Shown here piece after piece: positions 20,175 through 62,972 of a stretch of DNA of 64,000 bases. Location: the NCBI GenBank assembly GCA_015227615.1, contig JAALGZ010000024.1, positions 124,001-188,000 of the forward strand, given 5' to 3'. The stretch comes from Labyrinthula sp. Ha. Lineage: Eukaryota > Sar > Bigyra > Labyrinthulida > Labyrinthulaceae. The notes under the pieces are model-generated. The model was given only the letters and a program-made list of their open reading frames with translations. It had not been told where the DNA came from and made no database searches. The first letter of the stretch is position 1. The number at the start of each line of letters is the position of its first letter. A program made the translations under genes and the position numbers.

Positions 20175-23100
20175 TTATACACTGGCTTTTGCATCTACCT
20201 CTACATCCACTTTTTTTGCAGCTAACTCACTGGATTTATCCTGAACCTCCGCAATATGAGCCTGGTTTCTGTCACGGAAGATTGACAGTGCCAATACTAC
20301 TGCTAGAGCAATCGTAGCACCGATGAAAGTAAATAACGTCCTCTCTAGAGCATCATTGTCATCACTTGAGTTTTCTTGTTCTTCATCGCCTTCAATGTCA
20401 GTTTCCACAGCTGTTGATAATCTTTGAATCGTATCATGGTAAAAATCAAATACAGGTTTTGGTTCTCTCTCTAGAGTTTCGTAGTTGACATGGAGCAAAC
20501 CAAATCTAATCTCATATCCGGTATGCCATTCAAAATTATCCATCAAACTCCAGGCAAAATATCCCTGCATGTTCACTCCACTTTCTACTGCTAGCGTCAT
20601 GTTACCAATGTACTCTCTATAGTAGTCAATTCTTAAATCATCTTGGCCTTCAACCTCATCTAAATATCCAACCCCATTTTCGGTGCAAATAATTCCTCCG
20701 GGCGGATTGTATCTTTCCTGGATATATTTTAGCAACTCTCCAAAACCATATGGAACAACTCTTAACCAATCTAATGATGCTACTCCAGTAATCAAGTCGC
20801 CCCCAGCAGCGTTGTTTGTTTCACCTTCCGAAATAAACTCTGTAGTATAATGGTTTAACCCAAAGAAATCAGAAGCTCCTTTGAGAGCTGCCTTTTCTGC
20901 CTCAGTAAAAACAACACCTTCCAACCCTTCTGTAGTTTCAAAGTGTTCTTTCATAACATCAGGATAGTCATTGTTCTCTCCCCAGATAGGATCTGCCCAC
21001 CATCCAAAGCGGAAGTCAAATGCATTTCTCTGAGCAATTAAATTTTCCTCAGTGTCTTCCATTATCTGAAACCACGGTCCATCCAAAGTAATTCCAATCT
21101 TGCCATCTTCGGCATCGTTATATTCGTTGTGGTATAAGTGGTAGACTTCTGCATGAGCACGCAACATTTGATGGCCTACCAAGTACTGATCTACATCGAA
21201 TCTCTCATTCAATCCAGGTGCATGGTCACCTGTAGCGTATCCGAGAAATGAGATAACCCAGGGTTCGTTAAATGTGATCCAGTGTTTAACACGATCACCA
21301 AGTGCATCAAAAACAATATCAGCATAATAAGCAAAGTGTTCAGGAAAATCTTCGGAAAACATCCCACCCGTTTCATTGTACAAAGTTGCGGGTAAATCCC
21401 AGTGATATAAAGTCACGAAGGGAGTTATTCCATTTTCGATCAACTCATCCACAAGGTTGCTATAAAAGTCTATACCAGCTTGATTAATTTCACTACCTGC
21501 AAATCCAGTGGGTACAATCCTAGTCCATGCAACACTGAATCTGTAAGCATTTATTCCAAGATCCTTCATGTGTTGTACATCTTCCTCATATCTATGATAA
21601 TGATCGCAAGCAACATCTCCAGTATCCCCATTTACCACATTCCCTGGCACTCTAACAAAGTCATCCCAGATGGAAGGTCCTTTCCCATCCTCATTCCAAG
21701 CACCTTCTATCTGATATGCAGAAGTTGCAGTCCCCCAGAGGAAGTCTTTAGGATACGGACTCTCAGCAGGTTCCTCAGTTTCAACCACTATATCAAAAGG
21801 AACTTCTTGAAACTCGGAAATCAAATCACGGTAAAAGTCAAAAACTGGCTTCGGTTCTCTCTCTAGTGTTTCATAATCAACATGAAGCAAACCAAATCTA
21901 ATCTCATACCCAGTGTGCCACTCGAAGTTATCCATCAAACTCCATGCGAAGTAGCCTCTCATGTCTACACCCTCTGCAACGGCAAGAGTCATATTCCCAA
22001 TGTACTCTCTATAGTAGTCAATTCTCAGTTGCTCTTGACCTTCAACCTCATCTAAATAACCCACCCCATTCTCTGTACAATAAATTCCACCAGGTGGGTT
22101 GTATCTATCCTGTATATATTTTAGCAGCTGCCTGAAGCCAAATGGAACAACTCTCAACCAGCTCAAAGATGCAACTCCATTTGTTAAATCCGAGCCTGCT
22201 GTGTTATTCGTAGCACCGTCAGAGATGAATTCAGTTGTGTAGAAGTTCAGGCCCCAGAAGTCAGAAGACCCCTTCAAAGCTGCTTTCTGGGTTTCCGTGA
22301 ACGTAAGATTTTCCAAACCTTCTGTTGCACGAAAATGTTCCTTCAATACAGCTGGATAATCATTGTTTTCTCCCCAAATTGGGTCCGCCCACCATCCAAA
22401 CCTACTATCAAATGCATCAGTCTGAGCTTGTAAGTTTTCTGGTGTATCTTCCATCATGTGGAACCAAGGCCCGTCCAATGTAATACCAATCTGACCAGTT
22501 TTATCGTCATTATAGAAGTTATGGTACAAATGATACACTTCAGCATGGGCCAAAAGCATTTGGTGTCCCACAAGGTATGGCTCCACATTTGGATTAGAGT
22601 TTCTTCCAGGAGCATGATCGCCATTGTTATATCCCAACCAGGATATAACCCAAGGTTCATTGAACGTGATCCAGTGTTTAACACGATCACCAAGTGCATC
22701 AAAAACAATATCAGCATAATAAGCAAAGTGTTCAGGGAAATCTTCGGAAAACATCCCACCCGTTTCATTGTACAGAATTGCGGGTAAATCCCAGTGATAT
22801 AAAGTCACGAAGGGAGTTATTCCATTTTCGATCAACTCGTCCACAAGGTTACTATAGAAATCTATACCAGCTTGGTTAATTTCGCTTCCTGCAATTCCTG
22901 ATGGGACAATACGAGTCCAAGCAACACTGAATCTGTATGCAGTTACTCCAAGATTCTTCAAGTGTTGTACATCTTCCTCATATCTGTGATAGTGATCGCA
23001 AGCTACATCGCCTGTATCTCCGTTGGCCACATTACCTGGAATTCTCACGAAATCATCCCAAATGGAAGGCCCTTTTCCATCTTCATTCCAAGCACCTTCA

Positions 23101-24587
23101 ATTTGATAAGCAGAAGTCGCAGTTCCCCAAAGGAAGTTTTTCGGATAAGGATTTTCTTCCGGAAGCTCCGTAACAATAAGGTCGTCAGATTCTTCCTGAA
23201 AGTTTGATATCAAATCACGATAATAATTAAATACAGGTTTTGGTTCTCTCTCTAGAGTTTCGTAGTTGACATGGAGCAAACCAAATCTAATCTCATATCC
23301 GGTATGCCATTCAAAATTATCCATCAAACTCCAGGCAAAATATCCCTGCATGTTCACTCCACTTTCTACTGCTAGCGTCATGTTACCAATGTACTCTCTA
23401 TAGTAGTCAATTCTTAAATCATCTTGGCCTTCAACCTCATCTAAATATCCAACCCCATTTTCGGTGCAAATAATTCCTCCGGGCGGATTGTATCTTTCCT
23501 GGATATATTTTAGCAACTCTCCAAAACCATATGGAACAACTCTTAACCAATCTAATGATGCTACTCCAGTAATCAAGTCGCCCCCAGCAGCGTTGTTTGT
23601 TTCACCTTCCGAAATAAACTCTGTAGTATAATGGTTTAACCCAAAGAAATCAGAAGCTCCTTTGAGAGCTGCCTTTTCTGCCTCAGTAAAAACAACACCT
23701 TCCAACCCTTCTGTAGTTTCAAAGTGTTCTTTCATAACATCAGGATAGTCATTGTTCTCTCCCCAGATAGGATCTGCCCACCATCCAAAGCGGAAGTCAA
23801 ATGCATTTCTCTGAGCAATTAAATTTTCCTCAGTGTCTTCCATTATCTGAAACCACGGTCCATCCAAAGTAATTCCAATCTTGCCATCTTCGGCATCGTT
23901 ATATTCGTTGTGGTATAAGTGGTAGACTTCTGCATGAGCACGCAACATTTGATGGCCTACCAAGTACTGATCTACATCGAATCTCTCATTCAATCCAGGT
24001 GCATGGTCACCTGTAGCGTATCCGAGAAATGAGATAACCCAGGGTTCGTTAAATGTGATCCAGTGTTTAACACGATCACCAAGTGCATCAAAAACAATAT
24101 CAGCATAATAAGCAAAGTGTTCAGGAAAATCTTCGGAAAACATCCCACCCGTTTCATTGTACAAAGTTGCGGGTAAATCCCAGTGATATAAAGTCACGAA
24201 GGGAGTTATTCCATTTTCGATCAACTCATCCACAAGGTTGCTATAAAAGTCTATACCAGCTTGATTAATTTCACTACCTGCAAATCCAGTGGGTACAATC
24301 CTAGTCCATGCAACACTGAATCTGTAAGCATTTATTCCAAGATCCTTCATGTGTTGTACATCTTCCTCATATCTATGATAATGATCGCAAGCAACATCTC
24401 CAGTATCCCCATTTACCACATTCCCTGGCACTCTAACAAAGTCATCCCAGATGGAAGGTCCTTTCCCATCCTCATTCCAAGCACCTTCTATCTGATATGC
24501 AGAAGTTGCAGTCCCCCAGAGGAAGTCTTTAGGATATTGACCCTGCGCAATTCCAAATGCGGCTGCAAGAAACCAACCAAACTTCAT
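20175..24587 (-). CDS. membrane-anchored triple-domain GH1 beta-glucosidase (lactase-phlorizin-hydrolase-like layout)
   Basis: With the Met at 24587 as start, the protein is 1470 residues: signal peptide MKFGWFLAAAFGIAQG, three complete glycoside hydrolase family 1 domains (about 18-480, 487-940, 945-1395), an acidic linker, one membrane helix (about 1418-1437) and a 33-residue tail. An in-frame Met 20 codons upstream would bury the signal peptide, so the inner start is preferred. Every domain starts YPK(D/N)FLWGTATSAYQIEGAW and keeps the acid/base Glu (TFNEPW), the nucleophile Glu (CTENGVGY) and a WSLMDNFEW block, so all three look active on beta-glucosides at the cell surface or in the secretory lumen. 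Domains 1 and 3 are identical in protein and in DNA; domain 2 is clearly diverged. Animal lactase has four such domains and the same topology, but independent duplication is likely here. Confidence 0.92.
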   Translation of the reverse strand: MKFGWFLAAAFGIAQGQYPKDFLWGTATSAYQIEGAWNEDGKGPSIWDDFVRVPGNVVNGDTGDVACDHYHRYEEDVQHMKDLGINAYRFSVAWTRIVPTGFAGSEINQAGIDFYSNLVDELIENGITPFVTLYHWDLPATLYNETGGMFSEDFPEHFAYYADIVFDALGDRVKHWITFNEPWVISFLGYATGDHAPGLNERFDVDQYLVGHQMLRAHAEVYHLYHNEYNDAEDGKIGITLDGPWFQIMEDTEENLIAQRNAFDFRFGWWADPIWGENNDYPDVMKEHFETTEGLEGVVFTEAEKAALKGASDFFGLNHYTTEFISEGETNNAAGGDLITGVASLDWLRVVPYGFGELLKYIQERYNPPGGIICTENGVGYLDEVEGQDDLRIDYYREYIGNMTLAVESGVNMQGYFAWSLMDNFEWHTGYEIRFGLLHVNYETLEREPKPVFNYYRDLISNFQEESDDLIVTELPEENPYPKNFLWGTATSAYQIEGAWNEDGKGPSIWDDFVRIPGNVANGDTGDVACDHYHRYEEDVQHLKNLGVTAYRFSVAWTRIVPSGIAGSEINQAGIDFYSNLVDELIENGITPFVTLYHWDLPAILYNETGGMFSEDFPEHFAYYADIVFDALGDRVKHWITFNEPWVISWLGYNNGDHAPGRNSNPNVEPYLVGHQMLLAHAEVYHLYHNFYNDDKTGQIGITLDGPWFHMMEDTPENLQAQTDAFDSRFGWWADPIWGENNDYPAVLKEHFRATEGLENLTFTETQKAALKGSSDFWGLNFYTTEFISDGATNNTAGSDLTNGVASLSWLRVVPFGFRQLLKYIQDRYNPPGGIYCTENGVGYLDEVEGQEQLRIDYYREYIGNMTLAVAEGVDMRGYFAWSLMDNFEWHTGYEIRFGLLHVDYETLEREPKPVFDFYRDLISEFQEVPFDIVVETEEPAESPYPKDFLWGTATSAYQIEGAWNEDGKGPSIWDDFVRVPGNVVNGDTGDVACDHYHRYEEDVQHMKDLGINAYRFSVAWTRIVPTGFAGSEINQAGIDFYSNLVDELIENGITPFVTLYHWDLPATLYNETGGMFSEDFPEHFAYYADIVFDALGDRVKHWITFNEPWVISFLGYATGDHAPGLNERFDVDQYLVGHQMLRAHAEVYHLYHNEYNDAEDGKIGITLDGPWFQIMEDTEENLIAQRNAFDFRFGWWADPIWGENNDYPDVMKEHFETTEGLEGVVFTEAEKAALKGASDFFGLNHYTTEFISEGETNNAAGGDLITGVASLDWLRVVPYGFGELLKYIQERYNPPGGIICTENGVGYLDEVEGQDDLRIDYYREYIGNMTLAVESGVNMQGYFAWSLMDNFEWHTGYEIRFGLLHVNYETLEREPKPVFDFYHDTIQRLSTAVETDIEGDEEQENSSDDNDALERTLFTFIGATIALAVVLALSIFRDRNQAHIAEVQDKSSELAAKKVDVEVDAKASV
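20448..21755 (-). repeat. GH1 domain 3 repeat unit, identical to 23229-24536
   Basis: 1308 bp matching the domain 1 unit at an offset of 2781 bp, with no difference found on line-by-line reading. Identity stops at both edges: mismatches begin at 20447, and C versus T at 21756/24537. Silent sites are identical, so homogenisation or duplication is very recent, or the copy is an assembly artefact. Confidence 0.85.
23229..24536 (-). repeat. GH1 domain 1 repeat unit, identical to 20448-21755
   Basis: Partner of the domain 3 unit. Between the two lies domain 2, which differs at many silent and replacement sites except for one nearly identical patch at about 22664-22838. Confidence 0.85.
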
Positions 24588-24647
24588 ATCTCCGTGCTCT
24601 TGTTTTATCTTTTCAAGTTGAGTTTGTCTTTCCGTGTAATACAGCAA

Positions 24648-24657
24648 AAACGGTAAC
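24648..24657 (-). promoter_or_regulatory. Myb-like upstream motif (gene strand GTTACCGTTT)
   Basis: It starts 61 bp upstream of the preferred GH1 start at 24587, matching the ACCGTT core seen upstream of SMC1, LVIVD and HMGR. Confidence 0.4.
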
Positions 24658-27318
24658 CCATCGTTGCAAATCCTTCAAGGACACAATACCATTTCAAACC
24701 AGTAACACTAGAATTAAGATTTCTAACTCTTTATTTTCATCGTTTTACATCTCATTAAACGGTCATTGAAACTGGCCAATACAGCCACATTGCAAAATCG
24801 AATCTCAAATTTCCGATATTTGGCTTTATTTGGCAAAAGAGTTATTCGGCTTAACAAAGGAGATAAATTGTACTTGGTAGAAATATGAATCACAAAAAAA
24901 CCAGAGTGTTATACTCCTACCAAATATTAGCTTTACACTATAAGTTTTATATAGTAAGTTATATAATAACTATTTACCTATATTTCTTTTATAACTGGAT
25001 TTAAAGCAACCTCCTAGTAGATCTTTATCATCTCTCACCTTTTTTTTTAGAACGGGAATATTTATAGGACTTTTCGTTTAAGAATATTTCTTAGTCGCCA
25101 TTCAATTATCCCATTATATCACCAGAAAGGATTTACCTTCCTCAGAACTTATTTGAAAATATGTGAGGTAGAAGGACTTCAGAGGCAAAAACATGATTTA
25201 TTCTTCAAAGATCAGTTCGCCGATATAACTCTAGTCCTACTACGCTAGAACGAAAGACTGCTCTCCTTCTTGGTAGATTATGAAGAAGGGTAATAAAGAT
25301 TGTATAGCATTGATATATATATAAGTCGGAGAAGATTATCATGTGTACCCTTGTCAAGAACTAAATAGTACCAATATGCAACAACTCAAGAGACTTGAGT
25401 AAAATCTTACACAATCTTGGAGCCTGTTGCAGGACAAAAACCAAAATCGCTATGGATCCACGGATAGGAAAGCTACATACAGAAAAAACTATTTTCAAGG
25501 GAATCAAACCCTTGAGCAAATTTATGTATGGAAATTCGATCTACTCTCAGCGAACTAAGTACTTATACTTGGGCTATGAGAGTATAGTTCGTATCAACAG
25601 TGTTCAGATTAAAACATTAACCCGTATAACTTCGCCTCATTATTTCAGTGAATTAAGGTAGAATCATTTTAATAATATAGACTGTACTGGTACCTGCAAA
25701 AACTTTAAATGGGAGTATGCTACAATGTGTTTATCGTAAGAAGGTTTCTATCTAGAGCTTCAACTCGCTTAACCTCCATCCACTTCAAGATTGTTACTGG
25801 TAATCACGCCCTCATAATTCTGGATCTAGGTTGGTAGACGATTAGGGTTGTTGATACCGTTGTGTCATGTTTGAAAAATGAGAAAATACGCTACATTAGC
25901 ATCTTGCCATGAGGTTCTCAAAAAAATGCGGAAATAAAGTAATTAGGCTTTGCAAAATAATATCACAATAAATAATTTTTTATGACTGCTCACTGAGTTA
26001 CCAGTGTGTTCTGCATAGCAATATTTAATAATCCAAAAAATATAGAAATCAATGTTTATATGACTTCTCAACCCTCGTTATGGTCTCATTTATGAATGTT
26101 CTTTTCGATGACGGTGCCATAGGCCAGTTTGTTTAAAATTGTACTGAAGCTCAAAGAGGACAGTACGGGTTATAAACTCTGGGAAGAAATATCAAATATA
26201 ATGAAGAGGAACGTCAGAAATCCAACTATGACTACTTATGCAATTGTAAGTGATATGAAACAAGCTTGAAGGGTAGTGAAAATGTTTGAGATTGATAATT
26301 CAATGTAAGTTAGTGTGCTTATGCCCACAGAATCAGATAGGTGAAACCTCGTTAATCGCAGCAGCATCTAGCCACTAGGCAAAGAAGTTGCAGTTTTTTC
26401 TTCAGAAGTTACTTACACTTTATCGTCTTCGAGTCGATAAGTAAGAGGTATTTAACGTGTTATTGGAACCTAGTACTAATTCTTCCCATATATTTGACTA
26501 GGTAAAAGGGATTCTTCTAGCACAGCGTCTTATAAACCCATCTTACCAATTCCTTAGAGGCTACTGGTGTAGCAGAGATTCATATGACATAACCTATGTC
26601 AATTGTTCCCATGATTAATTTCTAAAATAGATTGTTTGTATGTTGCAGAGATGCTGGAGGAGTAATGCAACCTTGCACCTTCTTCTATCAAGTCCTAGAA
26701 TTCATATATCTATAACACTCTCAATATAACAACCTCATCACTGTTATCAATATTGGTTTTGTATGTGTGGTGTTTTCTGGAGAGAGCCAAGATGCCCAGC
26801 TGTTGTTATTCCAAGATTAAGATTCTTATAGTTCATTGCTTTGGCAATAAGTTAAACTATATCAATAACAAGACTCCATCAGTTATGTTGCTGGAGGGTG
26901 CTATCTACTTTTAAGAACTCGAAGCTAAATCTGGTACTCAGCTTCTAAAATTAGCTGTGTAACACTTAATCCCTGGGATATTTTACATCTTCCTGTTTTT
27001 CATGAGTTTCTGAAGCATGGATCACACATAGAACTAAAACCCAATTAATTTGTTTTGGGTACTGTTTGAGGAGAAAAAATCAAAATTAAAATGATAGTAT
27101 TAAAAAAACTAACTTCTTAAATTTGGATTGCACTATGATATTCCTAGAATGGCATTTCATTTTCTATATATCACAATACCACAAGTGTTACTGGGACCAT
27201 ATGCGGAAGCGCTAAACCAGCCTGATACTTTCTATTATTCATTTACAACGTGCTGAAACCACAAGAACATTGGCCAGGTGGTCCAATAATATTTCAGGAA
27301 TAGGTGCAATCGGAGATT

Positions 27319-27463
27319 TATTTGCCAGTAGGCGTGTTTAACGAGAGAATCTTAACGAGAGCTTCTCGAGAAGAGCTCTCTCGTTATCTCGCAAAATAAA
27401 TATTTAGGTAAAATCCTTCTCGAGAAGCTTTCGTTATCTCGATAAACAGGCCTATTTGCCAGT
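27319..27463. mobile_element. 122 bp foldback MITE with 11-bp target duplication
   Basis: The direct repeat TATTTGCCAGT occurs at 27319-27329 and 27453-27463. The enclosed 122-123 bp starts GGCGTGTTTAACGAGAG and ends with the imperfect inverse CTCGATAAACAGGCC. Inside, CTTCTCGAGAAG occurs twice, followed both times by a TCGTTATCTCG block, so the whole element can fold. Terminal GG and a 9-11 bp duplication are typical of Mutator-like elements. There is no coding capacity. Confidence 0.65.
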
Positions 27464-27689
27464 CATGGTTGTTATCTCAGGTGTTCTTACTGGAACAAAA
27501 CTTTGATACGGACAATCGTGTAATGTGCTTAAAATAGGTTAGAGTCATATTACCGTTAGACAGTTGTTAATATTAATTGGGGTGACTCAGTGGGTAAAAT
27601 AATACATAAGAAGAAACTAGAGCAACGGGATTGAATTCCACAAACTGGCGAATAATAACAGAAAAAAAGTTTGATACCAGAAAGCTACG

Positions 27690-27850
27690 CAAAAACAGAT
27701 TTTGGGTTTATTTCTGGATAACTTATCAATTTATTTATTTCCTACATTTTTCTCATTTATAATTATTAATATTTCCACAACCTTTTGAATTGATTGTTGA
27801 CAATCAATAGATTGCTATTATAATTTTGGACCATATGGCTAAAAAATTTG
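27690..27850 (-). repeat. dispersed repeat family, inverted copy
   Basis: The reverse complement contains GGTTGTGGAAATATTAAT, AATGAGAAAAATGTAGG and AATTGATAAGTTATC in the same order as the right half of the copy at 9570-9680. It is diverged but collinear. Confidence 0.4.
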
Positions 27851-29737
27851 TTATCTGATATTTGCATCGTGTACAGATATACATAAAGCATTCAAGTAAC
27901 CCAGGATTAGCCTGACAGTACAATGAAATTTGGTCACGTGATCCATTTCTTTTAGATTCTTACACAGTTTAAGAATGAAATATATATTTTGATCGTTTGA
28001 GGTAAGACCATTTGGAACAGTTCTATATTGAATGTCAATTGAAGATTAATATTAATGCAGAATAGTTTTGTATGGAACAAAATCCCAACCCTCTTGTTGA
28101 TAATCAGAGTCAAAAAAATTTTTAATAATTATTGATAAATTTCATAATATTCAACGCCTACCGAAAACTAAGGAAGTATAAGAAATCTAATTATAAATAA
28201 TACGGGCCATTCGACCAAATCCTTAACTGATGCTCATGACATTGCCATAGCTCACTAAAAGTGACTGGAAAAACCCTTAGTATTGCTCAAACTAAATTCA
28301 AGAACCCCCGGAATCGTATGTTAAATCTATTTATTATGAAACCATATCTTTAATTCCAAAATTATTTAAGTTGTTTAACCGACTTATTCTTTTTATTGGG
28401 TTAAGATATTTAAACTGGTTTGAATTTATTGAGTTTTATTTGAGATCTCGTTTTAGAAGGTTACCAGTTCATAAGTTCCTTATGACACTATTTCAAGAAC
28501 TAAAACCCGTTATTTCATCTTAATATATATAAGTTCTCATGCAAAATTGGATAGAGTAAAAAGTCCGACTGAAGCTACCGCTATTAAGGACATAGGCTAA
28601 TGGAATCCAAACCGACAATCAGTTGAAGGCCTGGTTAATACACCGGTCTGTCGGTTCCCATAATTTTCTTTGCTCTGTAACTTGTGTTTGTTTGTATTTC
28701 CATATATTTGTAAAGGTGCCAAGACTGTATGCTGATTAAACACAAGTTACACCTTTCATAGAAAACGTACCAGATTCATTTTACTGTAATTCTAATATTT
28801 ATAAGCCAATACTAAGAAGTTAAGCATTCTCAGAGCTGATATAATATGGCATACTGTGCTAAGTACTTGATAATAGGGTTTAAGCTCAGTTCCCAAGATT
28901 TCACTCATGAAAGACAGTTAAAGCGCATAAGATCTCGTGGAAGTTTAGCTAATTATATTGATTGTATTTCCTTTTATTAGTATATATGTAAACAGTCAGA
29001 AGGTGCCCAGGTGTAAAATCGGGACTAGGTGATTGTGTTGATAGAAAAGTTACAATATTTGTAGTTTAAATTAATATCTTTTCATCAATAGCTCTATCAC
29101 ATTATAGGAATAGTAGTCTCAACAGTATTTCAAATTCTTGGTAACTTATTTCTCTTTCAATTTTGTGGTATTTCTTTCTCATTAGAGGATACGAACTTTC
29201 CTGGATATTTGCATGACTCAACTTCTCACATAGCGCAAAGGCATGACTTAGTCCATGTGCTTACAACTTCTTATTATGAATTTCTAACTTCTCACAATTT
29301 CCTAAAACAAGATGTATAATTTTCTTTCAGACAAATATATAATTTTCAATCGTTGTTTCTATGAGTCTTAGAGTTGGATTTGGTAATTTCTTGTCAAAAT
29401 CTGTTTCTAATCCTATCTCTATTAATATAAGAAGTATAATTTTTTCGTAAATAATTATTTCACAAAAGAAAAAATAAGTCATTCACTCAACTCTAAAACA
29501 ATTTTCTTATTTATTGAAGAAACTCTGACATGTACCCTATTTCAAAAGATGGTATTCGTAGCCCCACCTCGCATATTCATGATTTCAAGTCTCTATCAAG
29601 AGTAAATCCGTACTTCATGTAAATTTTTACTCAAAGTTGGTACTAACCATTGGACTAATTTGTTGTTATCCGTCCTGAAAACGAAAGGACATACTCTAAA
29701 CTTTGGAAGGAGTACTTAATGCTCCATCTCACGATGA

Positions 29738-30716
29738 CACATGCTTAGGGTTCTTTATCGTAACGGAACACACGATAGTTAACGTTAAATTTCCTGATAA
29801 TTTTCCTTACCGTTATTAACGGTAAGCAAAGTTGGAGTCTTATCGTTTAACGGAAAAAAGCTAAAGTTAACGGAAAACACGATAAGCACGATAAGTAACA
29901 GTACGTACTGCTATATTTTGGAAAACTCAACAAACACCAAATTTTCTCTTCCTGGTTAAAGTCAAAACAAAACAAGTCCAGAAAACACTCCTTGTGTGAA
30001 CAAAAAAGGCAGTGCAAAGAAACGTAAAAGTAGTTGTTGAACATGAACAAAGAACAATTTGCTCGCCGAAGCTTCAAAATTAGCTGTCTTCTACTTGTTA
30101 GAGATTTTGCTTAGCTGAACTGTCTGAGAGACTTTCTGTTTGTAAGGGGAAACACTAAGATTGGGATGAAACAAAAAACTGACCAACTAAACTAATCTCG
30201 CGTTAAATTAATTTCTCCAAAGTAAAATTTTAGATTTTTCTATGTTGAATTTTCATTGTTGCCAAGGTAATACCTATGTTTTCCTAGTTGCATTTTCTCT
30301 CAGAGAGTAGAATTAGTTCTTTAAAATTATATAAAAAAATGTATTTGGAACATTTACCTACTCTCTAGGACTTAATTTTGAGCTTAGATTGAGATAAGTG
30401 TAAAGGTAAGGTTAGTAGTCAAAAGAAGATGTTCATATAAAATAATTTGCAAATGATGTTAATTCTTTGTTGCATTTACTTCTAAGTCAGCCTTTGCTTC
30501 ACTTTTATTCCTTTACAGGAATAATTTAGATATAATATATTATGGAGATATGATTTGGGACAGAATATTAAATTGTGAATAATTTTTGGAACATCAAAAG
30601 CTATTGTTCTTATCGCGCTTATCGTGGTTAACGCAAAAATTTTCTTTAGTTTCCAATCCGTTAAGGATTCCTTGCCTTTCATAACGGTAAGCACGATAGA
30701 AAACCCTGCACATGCT
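29738..30716. mobile_element. non-autonomous hAT-type DNA transposon (963 bp) with 8-bp target duplication
   Basis: CACATGCT is duplicated exactly at 29738-29745 and 30709-30716. The element (29746-30708) starts TAGGGTTCTTTATCGTAACGG, and its right end read inward is CAGGGTTTTCTATCGTGCTTACCG. Both arms continue for about 100-150 bp with shared GTTAACG, CTAAAG and CGATAAGCRCGATAAG blocks. An 8-bp duplication with (C/T)AGGG termini is the hAT signature. The interior has no frame longer than 76 codons, so no transposase is encoded. Confidence 0.8.
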
Positions 30717-33700
30717 CTCCAAAAAAAGAAATGTTTTTGATACGGATTAAAGGTTGTGTTATTTCCTTCAACTATTTACCATCTTAGGCTTAACGATTTA
30801 AATAACAACAGTAATATATATATGAACTATCTTCAATGTATGAGGAGTTAATGAGATCTTATTACCAGGTGGAGGTATAACGGTGACTTCACTGCAATCG
30901 CAAGCGAGTTCTAAGAAATACCCGGTGGCTGAGAGATAACTGAGAAACGTCACAGGCACTTTGACTGAATACTAAGAAGTTATATGTAACTTACTAAGAA
31001 CCTGGACATCTGGTCCATTTCTGAAATCCCTTAAGTACTATGCTTTACTGCTAAAACAATTATGTCCTAATGCTATTATGGAAATAACTTAATATTTATG
31101 AATTGGTTTTAGAAGATAAAATACTCTCGAACCCCTCTAAGACCTAAATGAATTTTTTGAAAATATGTTGGTTTATTTAGTAAGTGTGGCATATGGCACT
31201 TGTGCTAGGTTTGCAGTAATTCTACAGTTCTTTTTAGGTTTGGCGATGAATATTTATTGAACTTTTGAAAATAGATATTCTATTTCTATGTGTGAGTTTG
31301 AAAAATCTAAAAAAATAAAATTCTCAGTAATAGAAATAAGTTTTGTCAATTGAAAACATTCCCCTCAATAAGTTTTAAAAGAATTCGTTTCTCTTATGTT
31401 TAAAAAGAATATAGGCATTGCACAAGCTCAGCAGCGATATTTTAGTTTCTCTAAGAAGCTACAATCAACAGAATACCAGACAATACATATACAACATATT
31501 AGATTCAGCTGCCGCCTCGAGAAGTAATATAGGTTCTCCGTGAAACAATGTCTTGACAGCCGCCGCTGGTGGTACTAGATCAGTATATACTAACTCCGTT
31601 ATAACTGGGTGATGCTTGAAGCAGAATAAAACGGTGTTTACTGGACCTTGTTAGAGAACGAACAGAGAACTTAGATGCATATAACATAATTAAGTACTCT
31701 GGAAACAATGGAATCAAACTCAATAAAGACTGAGAGTATAACTGGTTATCTTCTCAATTATTCCATCCATGGCAAGGGGGCGAGGTGAGGATAATATAGT
31801 CCTATATCCAATTGAAAACATAGAGAAGAAGTTAACACTTAACAGTCTTCTCAAGAACCAACCTTCAAAAATTCTCCATAAAGCCAAAACCCGTCTAAAA
31901 CCCAACGAAGGAATTCTTAAAGCCTATATACATTATCGAAGCGTACATGAGTGTTATTAACGTACTAAATCAAAATTATTAGAAATATACTTTGGGGCAA
32001 AGAAATGGAAAAAATTAGAAGAATTGTATAATGTATTTAAAAAATACAAAACATCTATGGTAAGCATTTTGCTGCAACAAGAACATAAGAAACATAGGAA
32101 GCTGGCTCTTAAAGTAAGCTACAGTTAATATTCCTGCAAAGGAATACAACTATATTTTAAAGAAAGCTTAGTATTTAATTAAGCAAGCAAATAAAATACA
32201 AGAATTGCTCAATACGAAATATATCTCTATTTGGAAGATATAGTAACTATGTATAAACAGAATAATTGCAATGAATACCAATGTGATCCTATTTTTCAAG
32301 ATTTTAGCTGCTGTGGAACAGAATTGAAAAACTAAGAACTTATTGTTACAGGTTATGCCAAAATATCCGGTCTTGATTGTTAAGGATTACTAAAAGGGTC
32401 CCTAACATTTCTATTTGGATTTCATGTGGTATGTTAATCATGTGGCCCGACTTAGCTCATACAGTGTTGTTCATAGAAACGAGAAGCTGTCAACAGGTTG
32501 CTCAATGTAAATCAAATGTGGTTCTCAAGCTTCCAGATCCTTCTGTTAAAATTTTCAACTGGGGATGTTTCTAAGGTTTGTGAAATCATGGCACCATTCA
32601 CTGGGCCCTAATACAGGTATTTAGATTAATCCTCGTAAAATTTCAATTCAATGACAATATGTCTAGTAGACTTCTCAATCTTATTCCAGTTTTTGGATAC
32701 TTAGCAAAGTTTGGCAGGGTTCCCAAAACAATTTACAGAAAAGTGCGAGCTAGGGTATTTGAAATACCGAAGATCTCTAGAAATTTTTTTTTATCCTAGT
32801 CTTTATGTAAGGCGGGTTTATACAGGAGTGTATGATATACGATGCGAAGTGGTACAACACTGCGGATATAAAATCCTAGAGGCTACATTAGCAAGACAAT
32901 AAATAAAACTTAGACTTATAATCACCACAGCTCAACGAATTCATCAATTTTGGGTCATTCGTGTATAAATATTTCAAAATTGTTCGAATTATTATATCTA
33001 CTCAATTTAATAGTATCGCAGTTTCTGGAAGAAGTTTAATATCAACTAAAAAGACCGGAAACCTATCCTATATAGAGTTAACTCTAAGAGAAATTATTCA
33101 ATAAAATTTAGAATAAATAAAACAAACAAAATTAACCTGTTTTAAAAAGCCCAGCTTTTTCTAGGTTAACGAATGAGTTAATTTGCCTGGAAGAGTTGCA
33201 GTACTACTTCAACACAACAAGTGTCAAATGTCCCATGTGTAGTTTTTCCAGTGTCATCACAACAAAACCAGTTGCATTCTTAAAGAAAAATATACTTTTC
33301 AATATTTGGCAATATTTTTGAAGGCTTCTTCAAAAGAATTATGCCTAGCAAGGAATGAAACATGTCGATGAATGAAACAGCAAAGATTAAGTCAACATCA
33401 TTCTTAAGCAGTCTACATGTATTCACAAGTGAAATTAGACCTTGAAATCATGTTTTGATTAAATTAATAATGCCCTTATTAATATTTTAGCAGTTATTTG
33501 CTTCCATTTCTGTTGATTCTATGCGTTCTTCCGATGATATAAAAGATTTGGTACAGATGACGCGAGGTCTTAGTATTTTTTACATTGTAAGTATGTCTCT
33601 AGAGTCAAAATATATGATGAGGTCTGGGCATTTAAAACAAAAGATGATAAAAATTGATGAAATCAACTAGATAAAAGGATTATAGTTTTGGACCCTACCT

Positions 33701-35456
33701 ATTTTCCTGGTTGTGTATTTTTCAGAATATGAATCATGCAGTTATAAACCACTTCATACCGTACATCATACGCACGTGTCTCAAAATTGTTACCTCTTCA
33801 TACATATGGCATTTGTCTTGGCAGTGTAGAAAATATACATACTTAAGTGAGACACTATTTCTGTGTAAATTGAATTAGGTAATAATAATTTTGTGAGTTA
33901 GACGAGCGATTTTGCACTCAACAAGGCAATCTATTTAGCGATCCTTATAGCTAAAAACCCAATATCGGGTAGGAATTTAGTATATGAAGTAATAAAGACT
34001 CATTTAACCGAGCATTTGTAAGGGAATTAAATACTTTAAAAAGAACATACAACTAAAGCAAGCATACAACTCACTGACTAAGAATTTACTGCATGGATAT
34101 GAAACCTACTTCGCTTATTAGTCCTCAAGCTAACTTGCCAAGCCTTGCAGCTGGAATCAATATTTGTATTGCGGATGTAGTAAAAGTCACCCAGTGAATC
34201 TCATCAGGTAGTTTAAGTTTGAGAATGGTTGTAGCCAACATATTGCTGAGGAACAAGCAAACTTACACAAAAGATAAACAATTTTGTATCAGCTCTTTTT
34301 TTTAACATTCTGCTATCTCTGATGATGTTATCAATGAATGGGCTCATAAATGATAGATTCACTCCGCCTGCAAGAATAAATTACCATATCACTTCAAAGC
34401 TTTGCTCTGATGAAATTAATATGAAATAGTCAACTCAAAACCACCAGTATTAGAAGTTGCTATCCTTATATTATATTGTCCACACTTGGTTCAATCTGGA
34501 GTTAACGCTGAACAAAAAGTGTGTATTGGATTCTAACATCAAGTTTTTCAACAGGAGCCTATAATGCTTAGATTGTTTCTAAAGGGGTACGTTCGTGTAC
34601 TAAAGAAGAAATAATGATAATATGCTTCTTCCTGTGGATAACCTACTTCTGGTGCTAGTACTCTGGGGCAGGTATACCTGGAACATGGTATCCTAGTTTC
34701 ACCTTAGGAAAAAAAGTGGAAAACCAGAAAAAAAGAAAGAAAGAAGGTCTAGCACCTGTGAATGTCTCCTAAGTACAGAGACCTCTGACTGGGACAGCAC
34801 TAAAACAAGATTGGACTACTGGCAGACCTATGAACTAGAGTAAGAAAAACATAGCTCCTACGTTTTTATCTTTTATAAATCCATGATTATAGATAGAATC
34901 TCAGAGGTTAGATCATAATTATGCGCTTTACTCAAGAAAAGTTATTTCATAAGACATCACATCCACACAGAGACTTTCCTTAGTACATGTTTCTCTGACA
35001 CCACCCCATTTTCAATTATTTATGAAGCCCTTTTTCTGTCTTTCTGCTTAAGAGTTTCCGTGACACTGATTGCTAGGAATTGCTCCATTGGGTATTGAAT
35101 AATATCTAGCTTTTTTTTAGAGCTGCTTCATCACCTTAACGATCATAAATAACTAATGCAGCATTGTCCATTAAACGAAAGCGGCAGTTGGACCTGCTGC
35201 TTATACTCAAGGTAAGAACTGTAGATGTCCAAATATTCTGCTCAGGAGAAAGTTAGATTTTGCAGTGTAACTCTTAGTTTCTCTTAATATATCTATTACA
35301 TCCCTGAAAATAGTATTATTCAATGAGTTTGAAGTTAAGAGAATTCCTGCAATTAGAGCACGTCCATGGCAACTAAATAGTCTTGAAAATAAAGTATATA
35401 AAATAATTTGGGATTAAGTTAACAAAAATTAGGGCTGCAGAAAAAGTCAATATCAA

Positions 35457-56383: not shown

Positions 56384-59300
56384 ATGGAATCTAAAAGTGT
56401 TCATTGGGCCAAATATGTATTTTTTGCTCTATTTTTATCGAATTAGGTAACAACGCCTTCACCTAAGGGAAATGGAGAGGAGATTAAGCTTGAAATGCTG
56501 GAAGATACTTCTCTCCTAAGAAGAAAGAGAGTTAAATATCCTAAGTTCAATAAACCTCTTTCTCCTTCAAAACTCAAGTATTCATTAAAATACATAAAGA
56601 AACGATTAGACGTGGATGCATTAACATCCCTTCTACACTCAGAAAACGCTTCTCTAGTTTCACAACAATTTCTCGAAGTTATTATTGGAAAATGTCTTAT
56701 TTCAGATGATCTTGAAAAAGCAAAGTTTGTACTGGATTTGGGAAAAGAAACGTATAAAAATATATCCGTTTCAAATGAGTACTTTGATGAGTTTAACCGT
56801 TTAGGAAAAAGAAGTTTTAAGAAAATGATTAAAGGAAGTTCTGGAAATTTATTATTTATGAGTATTGTAAGGCAAGGTAAGTATGAAAATGTAGAATTTA
56901 TGATTAAAAATATGCACAAAAGTATGTTGGTACCAGTTAGTGTGGTTTTGGATAAAGCAGTTGTGTATGATGGGAACATGTTGCATGCAGAGTGGAGGAA
57001 GGACTTGGTGAATGAGAAGTTGGAGGAGATTGAAGATGAGTTAGATAAGGAGATGCTCAAAGCTATGCATAAGCTGGATTTACCCCCACAGAAGAAGTAT
57101 TTAATAACTCATTTTGAAGGTGAGACACTTTTGTCTGCTGCGTTGAAATTACTGAAGGATACCAAGGATGCTGCAAGTTTTGATATTGTCAAATTACTGG
57201 TCGAAAGTGGGTGTCAGGTCAAAACTGAAAGGTTTAAAGCTGCTCAGGTATGTGCAGAGTTAGATTTTCCTTTTCAGTTGGAATACTTGAGAACCAAGTA
57301 TTTGAAGCAAAATAAGAAAGAAAACAACCAAAAGCAGTTCTTTCGGATAATTGCTATGCATGCTGCAATGGAGAATAATCAGAGAATTCTAAAGTACATT
57401 AGATTGCGTTTATTTCCTCGTAAGAGACCCAGTTTACAAAAGGAAGATGATAAATTCGATCTTGAAATAGACTTCCGGAATGCTTTGGAATCTAGCATCA
57501 AGAAACTTGTCGATTACGGTACTGAACGGATATGTACTTATAGACATCGGATTCTCTATGGCATCTTTGTATTGTTGCAGTGGAGAAGCCAATTACAATT
57601 AGAATGGGGAAAGACAAAGATGGCGAAAAGCGTCAAAGGTAAATTTGGAAAAATTACCTTCGTTGATGATAGCGTAACTACTACAGCTACTCAGGCATTG
57701 AAGAAGAATTACGTTGCCTGGAAAAGAAAGGACAAAGGAATCCTGGCAGTAAACGATACTACGGATTATATAAGCAATGTGATCAAGCTTCTCGGGCCTG
57801 GTGAGGGTGATGATCCTGATTTTGTAGGTTCTGAAGAAAAACCTGAAATTTTTTGCGATAAATCTCTTGGTAATAGTTCCACCGGTCAAGCTTCAAATAA
57901 ATCAAACTTAAGTTTCCGTTCTAATAAAAAATATCATCAATTGGTCAGCAAAAGGGCTTTGTTTAACTGGCTCCTGGCAATTCTGCAGCAGCAAGACTAT
58001 CATGGTGATCAGTTATTTGAAGTGTTGCTAGGGTTAGGTTTGAAAGATTTTTTTTTGGGTGGGGTACCGAGTGATGAACAATCAGAAGTTTCCTCCTCTT
58101 TAGGCGAAAGTACTACAACATATGAATCAGATCAGGATTCAAGCAGTGTGTACTCAAAAAAGAGTGGTACAAGTATGACTTCAAGATGGAGTGGATCCAG
58201 TATAGCTTCCTCACTTGGAAGTATGGCTAAAGGGGTTAAGAAAGTTGCTTCAGAGATACGCCGGAAGAGCTCTTTGGCAGGTTTAAAAGAACTCTTAGAA
58301 ACAGCTGGAATGCAGCTTCAAAATTTGGCCACTGGAAAAAAAGTTAAGACAAAAAACAAAGCCGATTCGGATGATAAAACGCAGGCCCTTGAACTTGCGA
58401 GTGACTTTGGCAATAAGCAAGTTATGGAGCAGCTGTTAGATTTAATCGCCCCTGAATGGAACCAAAATGTGCTGAAATGTTTGCATATTGCTATCTCCAA
58501 AAATAGAGCCGGAAGTACTCGGGCACTTTATTCCCGGCTATGGATTATGTATGAAAGCGTAGAACACAAAGCCTCTCTTGGGGACAAACCTGGTACCAGA
58601 ACTGTTTTGAAGAATTATGCAAAAGGTGTGGAAGGTTATTTTAGTTTAGTGGAAGCTAGACAGCGAACTATTAAGAATGAAATATTACTGAAAAAGAAAA
58701 AAATTAAGACTAAAGCAACTGAAATTAAACACAAGAGGAGAAAAAGCATTTCGCAGCACAGGAAAGAGTTCGTGCGTAAGTTGAGTAGAAAGTTTTCCTG
58801 GAAAAGTGGAAGAGATTCTGACTCTGATTTTGGGAATGATGAGGAGCAGGAATCTAATCGCATTCTTAAGGGTGCAACTAGAGGGTTAAGAAGAGCAAAA
58901 AAAAGCATTTCGGATGCAGTGCTTGGCTTACGTACTGGTAAGAGCTCCAGGGGCCTTGGTATCCAAAAGCAAGATTCTTTACGATCTAAAGGCATGTATG
59001 GTGCAAAGCATTTATTCTACAAGCTTAATAAAGATAACCGAGACTCAAAGAACTTGAGGAGAACGGTTTCTACCTCTAAAACTGATGGAGAAGAATCTTT
59101 AACTAGTAACACCTATAACTTACCAAACGACCCTAAGAATTATGTCAAGTTTGTGCAAGACATCGGTCGATTATATTTTGAATACATGTATAAGACAGCA
59201 ACAAAAGGTGATAGGATTCAGGCCCTAATGGCACTTAATGAGGAAATAAATCTAACCTTGGGAAAAAAAATGCTTCACAATGATGTGAGACGTAGAATGA

Positions 59301-59929
59301 TTCTAGATCGCCTCAGGTCACTCTGCAGCGCAAAATCTAGAGTTAGCTTGAAAGACGAGAAAGTTAAGGCTGTAACGAAATATATGTCCATGATAACCAA
59401 TGATTTGACACTGAAGAAGTACCACAAGGAAACACTTCAGTCCCTTATCTCTGATATTGTGAAGAATCTTGGCTTTGATGGCTTAAAACACCGCCACGTT
59501 GAAGTGTTTGAGGTAATTGTAACAGAAAGTGAGGAACATATTGTTAGCAGCACCGACCTAGATACAAAGATAAACAAAGGTATCTTAACAATAGACCACA
59601 TTCTAACTATCTTGGAAACCGTTGGAGTTGAATTTGATAGAGAAAGGAGCGAGTACCCTGACGACCCTACAGTTGATGCTAGGTTCTGGAGCCAAGGAGA
59701 GATCTTATTAGACTTCATTGTTGAGCATCTGAACGATGCTTCTTTGCTCAAATATCCAACGATTGCGATTCAGATAGATAAGAGGAATCTCCAAGGCAGA
59801 TTACCACACAGAATAATTTCTCACCTGCGAGGACTTGCTATTCTTATTTGCTCACCAGAACAAATACCTTTGGTGGAGAATAGCTTTAGTCAACTCTATA
59901 GAGAAGACGAACAGGAAGAAGTGCTTTGA
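56384..59929 (+). CDS. large orphan helical-repeat protein, two exons
   Basis: Exon 1 is 56384-56416 (11 codons, MESKSVHWAKY), followed by a 30-nt intron (56417-56446) and one long exon, giving 1171 residues. The first Met of the long exon is at 56495, but the frame is open upstream to a TTAG acceptor, and splicing joins it in frame to the tiny first exon. I recognise no family. The N-terminal third has helix pairs somewhat like degenerate ankyrin repeats (GKYENVEFMIKNM; AASFDIVKLLVESGCQV). A Ser/Thr-rich segment near 560-610 follows, then a strongly basic region (KKKKIKTKATEIKHKRRKS) and a helical C-terminal domain. There is no signal peptide or membrane helix. A scaffold protein is only a guess. 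Confidence 0.85.
56417..56446 (+). other. 30-nt spliceosomal micro-intron
   Basis: It starts GTATTTTTTG, ends CGAATTAG and is T-rich. Its length is a multiple of three, but it ends in an in-frame TAG, so retention would terminate translation after 20 codons. Confidence 0.75.
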
Positions 59930-60275
59930 GAAGCTTCGAACTAACACTGAAACTTTTTAACTGTGAACAGCGCAACTGAATATGAATCTGATATTAAGCT
60001 TTAATTTTCTATTTATTTGAGTTCAAGATGTATTTCATTTTTACCGATTTATTTTGAATTCAAGCGAAAGAAACTGTAATCAAGACAGGAAGCTGTGAAT
60101 AAACTTGCTTGAAACAGATAAGAAGTAGATTTAATTTAAACATCTCCCAGAATTCTGAATTTCAGAAGAAACGTCGACATTGAAAAGGATATCTCTATTT
60201 CGCTCTAAAGCACTGAGAACCTTGTCTCCATTTTCTTGAACCCAACCATTTGAGGTGACATTAAGTCCGCAATAA
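59930..60275. other. convergent intergenic region with a small minus-strand ORF
   Basis: Shared 3' region of the orphan gene and OSGEP. The minus-strand ORF at 60131-60283 is listed separately; the rest is A+T-rich. Confidence 0.5.
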
Positions 60276-60283
60276 TCAGTCAT
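60131..60283 (-). CDS. possible 50-residue ORF overlapping the OSGEP stop codon
   Basis: An ATG 5 nt before the OSGEP stop, in another frame, opens 50 codons ([20 protein letters not shown]...). The peptide looks protein-like ([20 protein letters not shown]) and ends in TAA. OSGEP itself ends at the family's usual place (IWRDD), so this is not a needed extension. It may be a piece of another gene or chance. Confidence 0.2.
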
Positions 60284-61397
60284 CCCTCCAAATCACGTTT
60301 ACCTCATCAGTTCTAAATCTCTGCGTACAAACCGTATTACCTAAATTGAAAAAATCCATCGGAATCCCTTTTTCAACACTCGCTTTATATTCCAATAACC
60401 CCGCCTGCGCTATCATTGCTCCATTATCAATACAGTATCTAAAGTCCATATCAAACGTCTTTGCCCCTCGATCTTTCGCCATCTGGCTCATCATACCCTG
60501 TAAGCGTTTGTTACATCCAACTCCACCAACAATCAGCACCTCATTAGCATCACAATGCGCCATTGCCCTTTCAGTAACCTCGACAAGCATTGCAAAAACA
60601 GTTTCTTGCAAGCTATAACACAGATGTGACTTCAAATAACATTTCTTTTCTATTCGTATCTTCTTCAAGGGCGGAATTTCAAGCTTTGCAGTTTCTTTCT
60701 TGTACTCTTCAATAGATTCGACAACATTCGATCTCTTCACCAAACTTTGAACAGAGGTTAAGATTCCAGACAAGCTTATATCCATTCCTTTAACAACATA
60801 TGGAAGATCTATCAATTCTCTTTTAAGTTCCTTTGGAACTGTTTCTGCACATTTTTCAATATTGAATCCAGGAGAAGGGTCATTGCTCAACCCAATTGTT
60901 CGTGCGAATCTATCCAAGCAATTTCCAACTGCAATATCAATAGTTTCTCCAAAGATTCTATACTTATTTTTCTCATATACTATAACTTGTGTATTCCCTC
61001 CACTTACATACAACACAACTGGATTCTTGCTTTTTTCTAGAACTCTTCCCATTTCGATGTGCCCAATGCAATGATTGACAGGAACCAAAGGTTTTTTTAA
61101 TAAAAGACTTAACATACGAGCACAGACCGCTGCAGATGTAAGAGGACCTCCCATACCAGGTCCTTTTGTAAAGGCAATACAGGTTAAATCTTCCGCTTTC
61201 AAACCAGCAAGTTGCAAAGCCTTCTTCACCAAAGGAACTACGTGATTTTGATGATGCCACGCGGTTTCTCGAGGTAAAAATCCAGTTCCAGGCTTAGTGA
61301 TGAAAGTTTTGCGTGGATTAGATAATATTTCCCCGTTTTCATTGATTATTCCAACACCAAGTTTATTTGCACTTCCCTCTATCGCCAAGCATATCAT
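60276..61397 (-). CDS. OSGEP: OSGEP/Kae1, KEOPS subunit for tRNA t6A37 synthesis
   Basis: A 373-residue member of the TsaD/Kae1/Qri7 family, which transfers threonylcarbamoyl to A37 of ANN-decoding tRNAs. The start is taken at the second Met ([16 protein letters not shown]), where the family normally begins; an upstream Met would add nine residues. Landmarks are GPGMGGPL, the metal-binding [10 protein letters not shown] (His109, His113), [23 protein letters not shown] and [12 protein letters not shown] with the third metal ligand. The N-terminus lacks a presequence and the eukaryote-specific ending ([11 protein letters not shown]) is kept, so this is the cytosolic KEOPS protein, not mitochondrial Qri7. 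It has an extra Lys-rich segment of about 30 residues ([19 protein letters not shown]) near 235-265. Confidence 0.93.
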
Positions 61398-61464
61398 AAT
61401 TGCCCTTAAAAAGGGTAATGTCATATTATGTTAAAATAATATCAACAGATTTCGGAAGATTCTA
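61398..61464. promoter_or_regulatory. 67 bp bidirectional promoter, OSGEP / TPM-RING gene
   Basis: The two start codons are 67 bp apart in divergent orientation. The space is A+T-rich and lacks the AACCGTT motif. Both leaders must be very short, or overlap the partner gene. Confidence 0.5.
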
Positions 61465-62972
61465 ATGAGCAGTTTGAAGAGAGTGTTGTCCGTTTATATA
61501 TTAATTAAATCAACAAAATCAATTTCTCCAGGCGATCTTCCGAATCCAATATTACATTATTCTGGATGTGGCAGAGAGGAACCTTCATATATATGTGATC
61601 CCTATAATTATATCGATAAAGACGAGTACGAAAAGTTGGATGAAATTTTGGATTCGTTGCGGGAAGGGTTTCAGGGGCCTAAAGTATGTGACAATGAGAG
61701 TATTGGATATGAGGTATAAGCTTTTATTAGTGTGTTATATAGGTTGGTGTGGCTGTTATTGACCAGATGCCGCGAATATATTCTCCACAGAGTTATGCAC
61801 ACACAGTATACGCGAATTGGGGAGTTGGAGATGCCACCTGTCACAACGGGCTGTTGTTGTTTCTTTCAATAGAAGACCGAGAAATGTATGTTGTAACAGG
61901 CTCGGCAACTAGGAAAAGAGTATCTGACTCGAGAACCCTATATGTGCTAGATTCGATGAAGCCTTTTTTGAAGAAAAAAGAATATGGAAATGCTGTCTAC
62001 GCGGGATTAATGAAGATTGAAGGATACTTGTTGCAAGAAAGTGAGGCCTCTAGGTAATTATTTTTTCTTCGATAAGTTATTAGTGGTTGGGATATTTTCT
62101 TGACATTTGTTGTTGCATCTAGTTTCTTAGGTATAATTGGCTACGGCTTATATGCAGAATATATGGGAGCTCGGAATCTGAGATTAGCGAGGGAAAAACT
62201 CGAGAAGTTGGAAAACGATAGAGATATGTTGTCTCGTAATGTTTATGTCGCGGATACGTGCCCAATCTGTCTAGAGAAGCTTATCTTTGACGAGGATGGA
62301 ACCAGTTCTGAAACAGTGAATATAAGTCGTAGAATCTCTGGCGAGGAGAACTGGGTTGTCAAAAAAGTTAAAGAATTTATTGCGAGAATCCGAGTACGGT
62401 TGAAGTGGCTTGCGACGAAGGTGCTTGATTTTTTTAAAGTTAGGCACAGCTTTACTTATGACGCAGTGAGGACAAACGATGTGACAATTTCATCCTCAAA
62501 AGCAGCCTTTGCTGTAAAGTGTGGTCATATTTTCTGTGAAAGTTGCATCAAGAATTGGTTTGTCAAGAGCAACTTATGTCCAATCTGTAGAAAAAACCTC
62601 TCTGACGTTGATCACCCTAGACAAGATCAAAGGGCCGATTTGAACCAAGGAAATCGAACTACGCCAGCGATGGAAAGACTCAGTAATCGAAATACATTGG
62701 TCAGGCACATGAGGGCCCTGGAAGATCATCTTTGGTGGGATTCATTCAGATATAGAATGACTAGATTAAATCATTACTATCCAAGGTATGTAAACCAACG
62801 CATGGTGAGAGAATTTAGTCAAGAACCGCGATCTACTTATCTTACTAGACACCATCATTTCATTCGACAACAGCAAGCCATGGCCGCAAGTAGAAGTTCC
62901 TCCTCTCATACTAATACAAGAACTAATTTTGGAGGTGGAGTGGCATCTGGTGGTGGCGGGGGTAGTTGGTAG
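61465..62972 (+). CDS. TPM-domain membrane protein with C-terminal RING finger (MOLO1-like), three exons
   Basis: Exons 61465-61713, 61743-62053 and 62084-62972 join in frame to 482 residues; introns are 29 and 30 nt. The ectodomain-like part is a TPM domain of the MOLO1 type: PNP...SGCGREEPSYICDP, then IGYEVGVAVIDQMPR, YANWGVGDATCHNGLLLFL, and REMYVVTGSATRKRV across the splice sites, which supports both introns. A membrane helix (about 192-210) follows, then a C3HC4 RING: CPIC (246-249), CGHIFCESC (333-341), CPIC (352-355), so ubiquitin-ligase activity is expected. The loop between the second and third zinc ligands is 83 residues, far longer than usual, with a basic amphipathic helix. The tail is Ser/Gly-rich. 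Confidence 0.88.
61714..61742 (+). other. 29-nt spliceosomal micro-intron
   Basis: It starts GTATAAGC and ends TTATATAG. Removal joins GAG to GTT and restores the continuous TPM domain strand (YEVGVAVIDQ). Retention gives GAG GTA TAA, an immediate stop. Confidence 0.85.
62054..62083 (+). other. 30-nt spliceosomal micro-intron
   Basis: It starts GTAATTATTT and ends AAGTTATTAG. Splicing joins AG to T (Ser) and leads into the membrane helix. Retention gives AGG TAA, a stop. Confidence 0.85.

Follow-up and report, generated by a model that had tools for sequence, protein, structure and literature searches.

Very small spliceosomal introns are known from several lineages. In the available excerpts of the published accounts, the introns of Blastocystis have a modal length of 30 bp and number 18,200–35,412 in genomes of 13–19 Mb, with U12-type introns among them (PMC5608401), and the ultra-short introns of Paramecium measure 25–45 bp (PMC5014332). 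Intron lengths of 16–17 nucleotides (nt) are given for mikrocytids, 15–16 nt for heterotrich ciliates and 18–21 nt for a nucleomorph (PMC10245619), the shortest Trichomonas intron has 23 nt (PMC12316389), and intron-poor eukaryotes keep a conserved distance between the branch site and the 3′ splice site (PMC2483917). Here we describe three introns of 29–30 nt in two genes of Labyrinthula sp. Ha, lying in a stretch of 64,000 nt (the window; GCA_015227615.1, contig JAALGZ010000024.1, positions 124,001–188,000 of the forward strand). An earlier note on this DNA had placed introns of such size near the known lower limit, which is overstated in view of the 15–21 nt introns already described (PMC10245619) and of the Blastocystis mode.

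Judged from the sequence, the three are almost certainly real introns, which would be spliced out in the RNA. The explanation that we hold with good confidence is that they are ordinary U2-type (GT-AG) introns, belonging to a class of about 28–32 nt with a preferred branch geometry, in a labyrinthulomycete. The GTA-type donor would be read by U1 and U6, and U2 would pair with a degenerate TTNAY-like branch site, the A of which usually lies at position -8 from the intron end, 20–23 nt past the first intron base, with a T-rich stretch filling the gap to a TAG acceptor. Such a preferred geometry would set both the floor and the optimum of intron length, so that the introns would have converged near 30 nt.

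The three introns of the window and their genes

The introns and their exons are as follows, in window coordinates (3n denotes a length divisible by three).

56384..56416, + strand: exon 1 of an ankyrin-like gene, 11 codons; the same 33-nt first exon is found in a paralogue
56417..56446, + strand: intron 1, 30 nt, 3n, in phase 0; if retained, its closing TAG lies in frame
56447..59929, + strand: exon 2 of the ankyrin-like gene, open frame; Ank_2 match under the curated cut-off
61465..61713, + strand: exon 1 of a TPM-RING gene, 83 codons
61714..61742, + strand: intron 2, 29 nt, in phase 0; retention shifts the frame and brings a TAA at the second codon
61743..62053, + strand: exon 2 of the TPM-RING gene, TPM domain (Pfam TPM, 62.3 bits)
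62054..62083, + strand: intron 3, 30 nt, phase 2, 3n, TAA in the second codon if retained
62084..62972, + strand: exon 3 of the TPM-RING gene, Pfam RING finger; hydrophobic stretch judged by eye to be a membrane helix

Positions, lengths and GTA...TAG ends agree with those first reported for the three introns, and the statements that their removal joins reading frames and that each of them brings a stop upon retention were borne out as well, with spliced open frames of 1171 codons in the ankyrin-like gene and 482 codons in the TPM-RING gene. Their assignment to the spliceosomal type also held, in view of the GT-AG ends, the homologous proteins that are restored, one intron position conserved in a paralogue and the Prp8 encoded in the genome.

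In the TPM-RING gene, a homologue (P0002; 35% identity over 93% of the query) aligned with no gap across either junction, which we consider stronger proof than the domain scores. In the spliced protein, Pfam placed MOLO1 at residues 25–129 and TPM at residues 80–177; junction 2 falls after residue 83, within MOLO1, and junction 3 in codon 187, ten residues beyond the TPM match and ahead of the hydrophobic stretch, which by eye reads as a membrane helix in a protein with a signal-peptide-like start. Splicing lifted MOLO1 from a score of 35.6 bits to one of 58.7 bits, and the TPM score did not change (exon 2 alone, 62.3 bits; spliced, 61.8 bits; exon 1 carried one residue belonging to exon 2 in this exon-wise scoring). 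The earlier claim that two of the introns restore a TPM domain needs correction, as only the intron at 61714–61742 lies inside the TPM/MOLO1 region and the one at 62054–62083 lies beyond the TPM match.

An almost identical deposited protein (P0001, from EukProt, a MAKER gene on 'scaffold_24') has introns 2 and 3 spliced identically. Its MAKER quality field gives 0.66, which we take for the fraction of splice sites that have transcript confirmation. The same model omits 9 nt (the three residues FLG) near intron 3, at window 62115–62130, where the genome encodes the equivalent of GTTTCTTAG; because P0002 aligns there gap-free, this 9-nt 'intron' is probably an annotation artefact. As intron 2 shifts the frame in the manner of an indel error, one might suspect that introns 2 and 3 arose as indels during sequencing or assembly, or that the TPM-RING gene is a pseudogene in decay, the GT-AG ends being due to chance. 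This is extremely improbable, however, since the chaperonin genes described below repeatedly contain AT-rich inserts that measure 28–36 nt and are bounded by GT-AG, P0002 fits across both junctions once the inserts are removed, and identical splices stand in a deposited annotation that bears a transcript-evidence field.

Until a paralogue was compared, the case for intron 1 was less secure than that for the other two, since the long frame contains an ATG of its own further downstream. A deposited EukProt SNAP model (P0019) is 100% identical over its length and carries exactly the intron 1 splice; its AED of 1.00 means that no evidence stands behind the model. These two points would favour a gene lacking this intron, in which the ATG at 56495 opens a 1144-codon frame and the 33 nt upstream stay untranslated. 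We regard this as very unlikely, given that the paralogue P0020 (C71:553377-556889; 49% identity over the whole length) has the same 11-codon first exon with similar residues, followed at the same codon and in the same phase by an intron, GTAAAACTTCCAACTTTATAAATTTCAG, which differs from intron 1 in sequence, has 28 nt and is not 3n. A different length and sequence at a conserved place is the look of an old intron.

Proteins of about 1170 amino acids with weak ankyrin similarity are encoded at window 56384-59929, C71:553377-556889 and C90:238194-240607. The protein search with the ankyrin-like gene (7989 candidates scored) returned only its own model and one same-scaffold paralogue, and the third relative came from the genome search; the family looks lineage-restricted.

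Tiny introns elsewhere in the genome

A Cpn60_TCP1 search of the 50.8-Mb genome gave 19 matches in nine genes, six of which contain introns; none was found in the other three. Together with the two window genes and P0020, the six chaperonin genes provided a sample of 23 introns in nine genes, the chaperonin introns being located from reading frames, gene-model scanning and protein conservation. Twenty-two of the 23 measure 28–36 nt and 21 of these 28–32 nt (mean 29.8, mode 30). All 22 and the remaining, longer intron have GT-AG ends, which the gene-model scans also required of their candidates. The CCT-beta gene alone has six introns, each of 28–31 nt, and the three spliced chaperonins tested match the Cpn60_TCP1 family over almost the whole of its length. 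At C121, a proposal of 253 nt was replaced by two shorter introns read from the frames and the protein.

Outside this sample, 258 kb of C71 were scanned for gene models with neither a length preference nor a splice-site model. Five introns of 28–31 nt emerged with GT-AG ends, as compared to 0, 2 and 0 when three pairs of decoy ends were used; at other lengths the counts for GT-AG were not clearly above those for the decoys. The first settings of such scans badly over-predicted introns and their output was not used. The scan can miss introns that follow very short first exons, and window intron 1 was missed in this way. The third ankyrin-like relative on C90 has a 29-nt intron, also outside the sample, and a poor 28-nt gene-model proposal on C90 was set aside. 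A frame-join scan made without gene models gave counts that were alike for real and decoy ends, its coding model being too weak.

The three window introns are thus typical for this genome and not exceptional, and from the sample the 28–32 nt class probably extends genome-wide. The genome encodes Prp8 (PROCN, 759 bits, in a single open frame of 2434 amino acids). An Rfam scan of the window gave no match at the gathering threshold, and no genome query for small nuclear RNA genes was made. All 14 proteasome matches are free of inner stops, and several conserved genes look intronless. For the kinase, Prp8, UPF1 and proteasome loci only the coordinates were used.

The chaperonin CCT-beta places the organism as a labyrinthulomycete near Aplanochytrium. 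A red alga, the reading that database matches of the TPM-RING protein had suggested, was rejected on the search and tree made with CCT-beta. In the CCT-beta search (best 120 of 5274 matches; 7997 candidates scored) the closest named relatives of normal length were from Aplanochytrium, at 73% and 70% identity; two longer plant entries, at 61% and 59%, outscored them and were excluded from the tree. In the CCT-beta tree of 23 hand-picked sequences, a clade of nine rows received 100/100, and a four-row group with Aplanochytrium received 94/98, just below the tool's mark; the nearest row of the whole tree is P0026. The small-subunit ribosomal RNA (L047 55-1946, C56) has about 1603 nt and is AT-rich and divergent, with internal transcribed spacers 1 and 2 of about 72 nt each and a weak 5.8S match; its shortness and divergence may point to a Labyrinthula-like organism.

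Three long open frames were also observed. Two, of 915 codons each, lie about 18 kb apart (C71:73630-76375 and 91427-94172), and one of 1490 codons lies at window 20175-24647, in a region with a repeated set of open frames; these are probable mobile elements or repeat proteins.

Splice signals and the effect of retention

The 22 tiny introns are AT-rich (72%), with GTA donors in 19 and TAG acceptors in 21. An A stands at position -8 in 14 of them (background 0.22; P 0.0004 against a shuffled null evaluated at its best position), where it lies 20–23 nt past the first intron base, and in nine it forms part of a TTNAY motif, a count that none of 5000 shuffles reached. The same A was present in four of the five C71 gene-model introns, which are independent of the motif discovery. 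This A would be the branch point. Genome-wide, the pattern GTAANT...TTNAYNNNTAG occurred 232 times at lengths of 28–31 nt, in clear excess over the counts at 38–41 nt (160; two-sample z 3.6) and 21–24 nt (147; z 4.4), the corresponding counts for the backward pattern being 190, 163 and 184. As the narrow pattern fits 3/22 sample introns, a motif excess of perhaps 50–75 would put the number of tiny introns, as a rough estimate, between several hundred and a few thousand.

Several observations weigh against a uniform class with this geometry. None of the three window introns has an A at -8. The 28–31 nt count exceeds its own backward control by little (232 vs. 190, two-sample z 2.0) and is inflated by repeats, with six strings recurring and at least nine extra copies among the matches listed; this inflation lowered our confidence in the explanation. 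Not all introns are tiny, as one in the HSP60 gene has 127 nt, and the C71 scan also proposed unproven introns of 117–249 nt. Nineteen of the 23 sample introns come from a single family, the chaperonins, and the deposited models are not free of error, as the 9-nt omission in P0001 makes plain. One identical 31-nt string with the intron motif was found at five places on four contigs (C65, C66, C70 and C72 of genome G000) and probably belongs to a dispersed repeat.

The earlier note had further read the stops on retention as a sign of surveillance by nonsense-mediated decay (NMD), which would mean that tiny introns are kept under surveillance and that their stops are selected. Retention does give a stop in 19 of the 22 tiny introns, but shuffling that keeps six bases at the donor and eleven at the acceptor in place predicts 18.4 (P 0.33), and 3n introns are not depleted (8/22). 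The splice signals supply stops by themselves, through the GTAA donor in phase 2 and the terminal TAG in a phase-0 3n intron. The check proposed with that claim, the share of 3n introns with in-frame stops, gave 7/8 in this sample, vs. 6.5 expected with three bases fixed at each end (P 0.51) or 5.0 with two (P 0.12), in a small number of introns. Among non-3n introns a weak excess was seen, 12/14 vs. 7.9 or 9.4 expected (P 0.015 and 0.043), which should be read with caution because frame-based detection inflates stop counts: many sample introns were noticed through frame breakage, and detection thus favours introns that break the frame. In addition, one 3n intron of the CCT-beta gene has no stop, and a further stop-free 3n candidate of 30 nt, outside the sample, lies at C71:99568-99597. 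A partial UPF1 zinc-binding domain in the genome (profile positions 16–93 of 152) makes NMD possible, and the pathway may exist in this organism; the pattern of retention stops lends no support to their selection under its surveillance, which we consider unlikely.

The C71:99568-99597 candidate, an illustration of how detection through frames can inflate the number of stops, lies in an acyl-CoA dehydrogenase gene whose frame stays open across it, and annotation would turn it into ten additional residues. Stop-free 3n introns may in this way be mistaken for protein-coding sequence, and gene finders that apply a customary lower bound on intron length may split genes of this genome or extend them wrongly.

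Comparison with known systems of short introns

No report of tiny introns in labyrinthulomycetes appeared among the matches listed from open-licence PubMed Central, and the available part of PMC10016063 makes no mention of introns. New here are the TTNAY branch-like motif with its A at -8 and its modest genome-wide excess at 28–31 nt, which is due in part to repeats. The proposed geometry, in which the branch A would lie at -8 and about 20–23 nt past the first base, is concrete and testable.

With intron-poor eukaryotes this genome would share a branch-like motif that favours one distance from the 3′ splice site, although the motif is weaker here (TTNAY at -8 in 9/22, with no A at -8 in the three window introns) and unlike their WCTRAYN consensus as given in the accessible part of PMC2483917. 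Genomes of that class carry no more than roughly 0.15 introns per gene; the figures here come from samples only, with 19 introns in nine chaperonin genes. Paramecium resembles the present case in the narrow range of short lengths, whereas its 3n introns are described, in the portion of PMC5014332 at hand, as strongly selected and stop-rich, neither of which was found in the 22 introns here.

Blastocystis shares the modal length and the GT-AG ends and, like Aplanochytrium, belongs to the Bigyra (NCBI). It differs in having 18,200–35,412 introns, U12-type ones included, in 13–19 Mb, whereas the present genome has 50.8 Mb and several conserved genes in which no intron was seen. The optimum near 30 nt might be a property of the spliceosome shared within the Bigyra by labyrinthulids and Blastocystis, but we think this unlikely. 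The donor-branch-acceptor geometry would then have been inherited, or reached via the same change of the machinery, and many other labyrinthulid genes would have lost introns.

Mikrocytids and Trichomonas have tiny introns too, but shorter ones and in parasites, and the mikrocytid spliceosomes are reported, in the excerpt of PMC10245619, to be highly reduced. With the introns described here, a labyrinthulomycete with a genome of 50.8 Mb joins the short list of lineages with introns near the minimum, and extreme genome reduction would therefore not be required for them.

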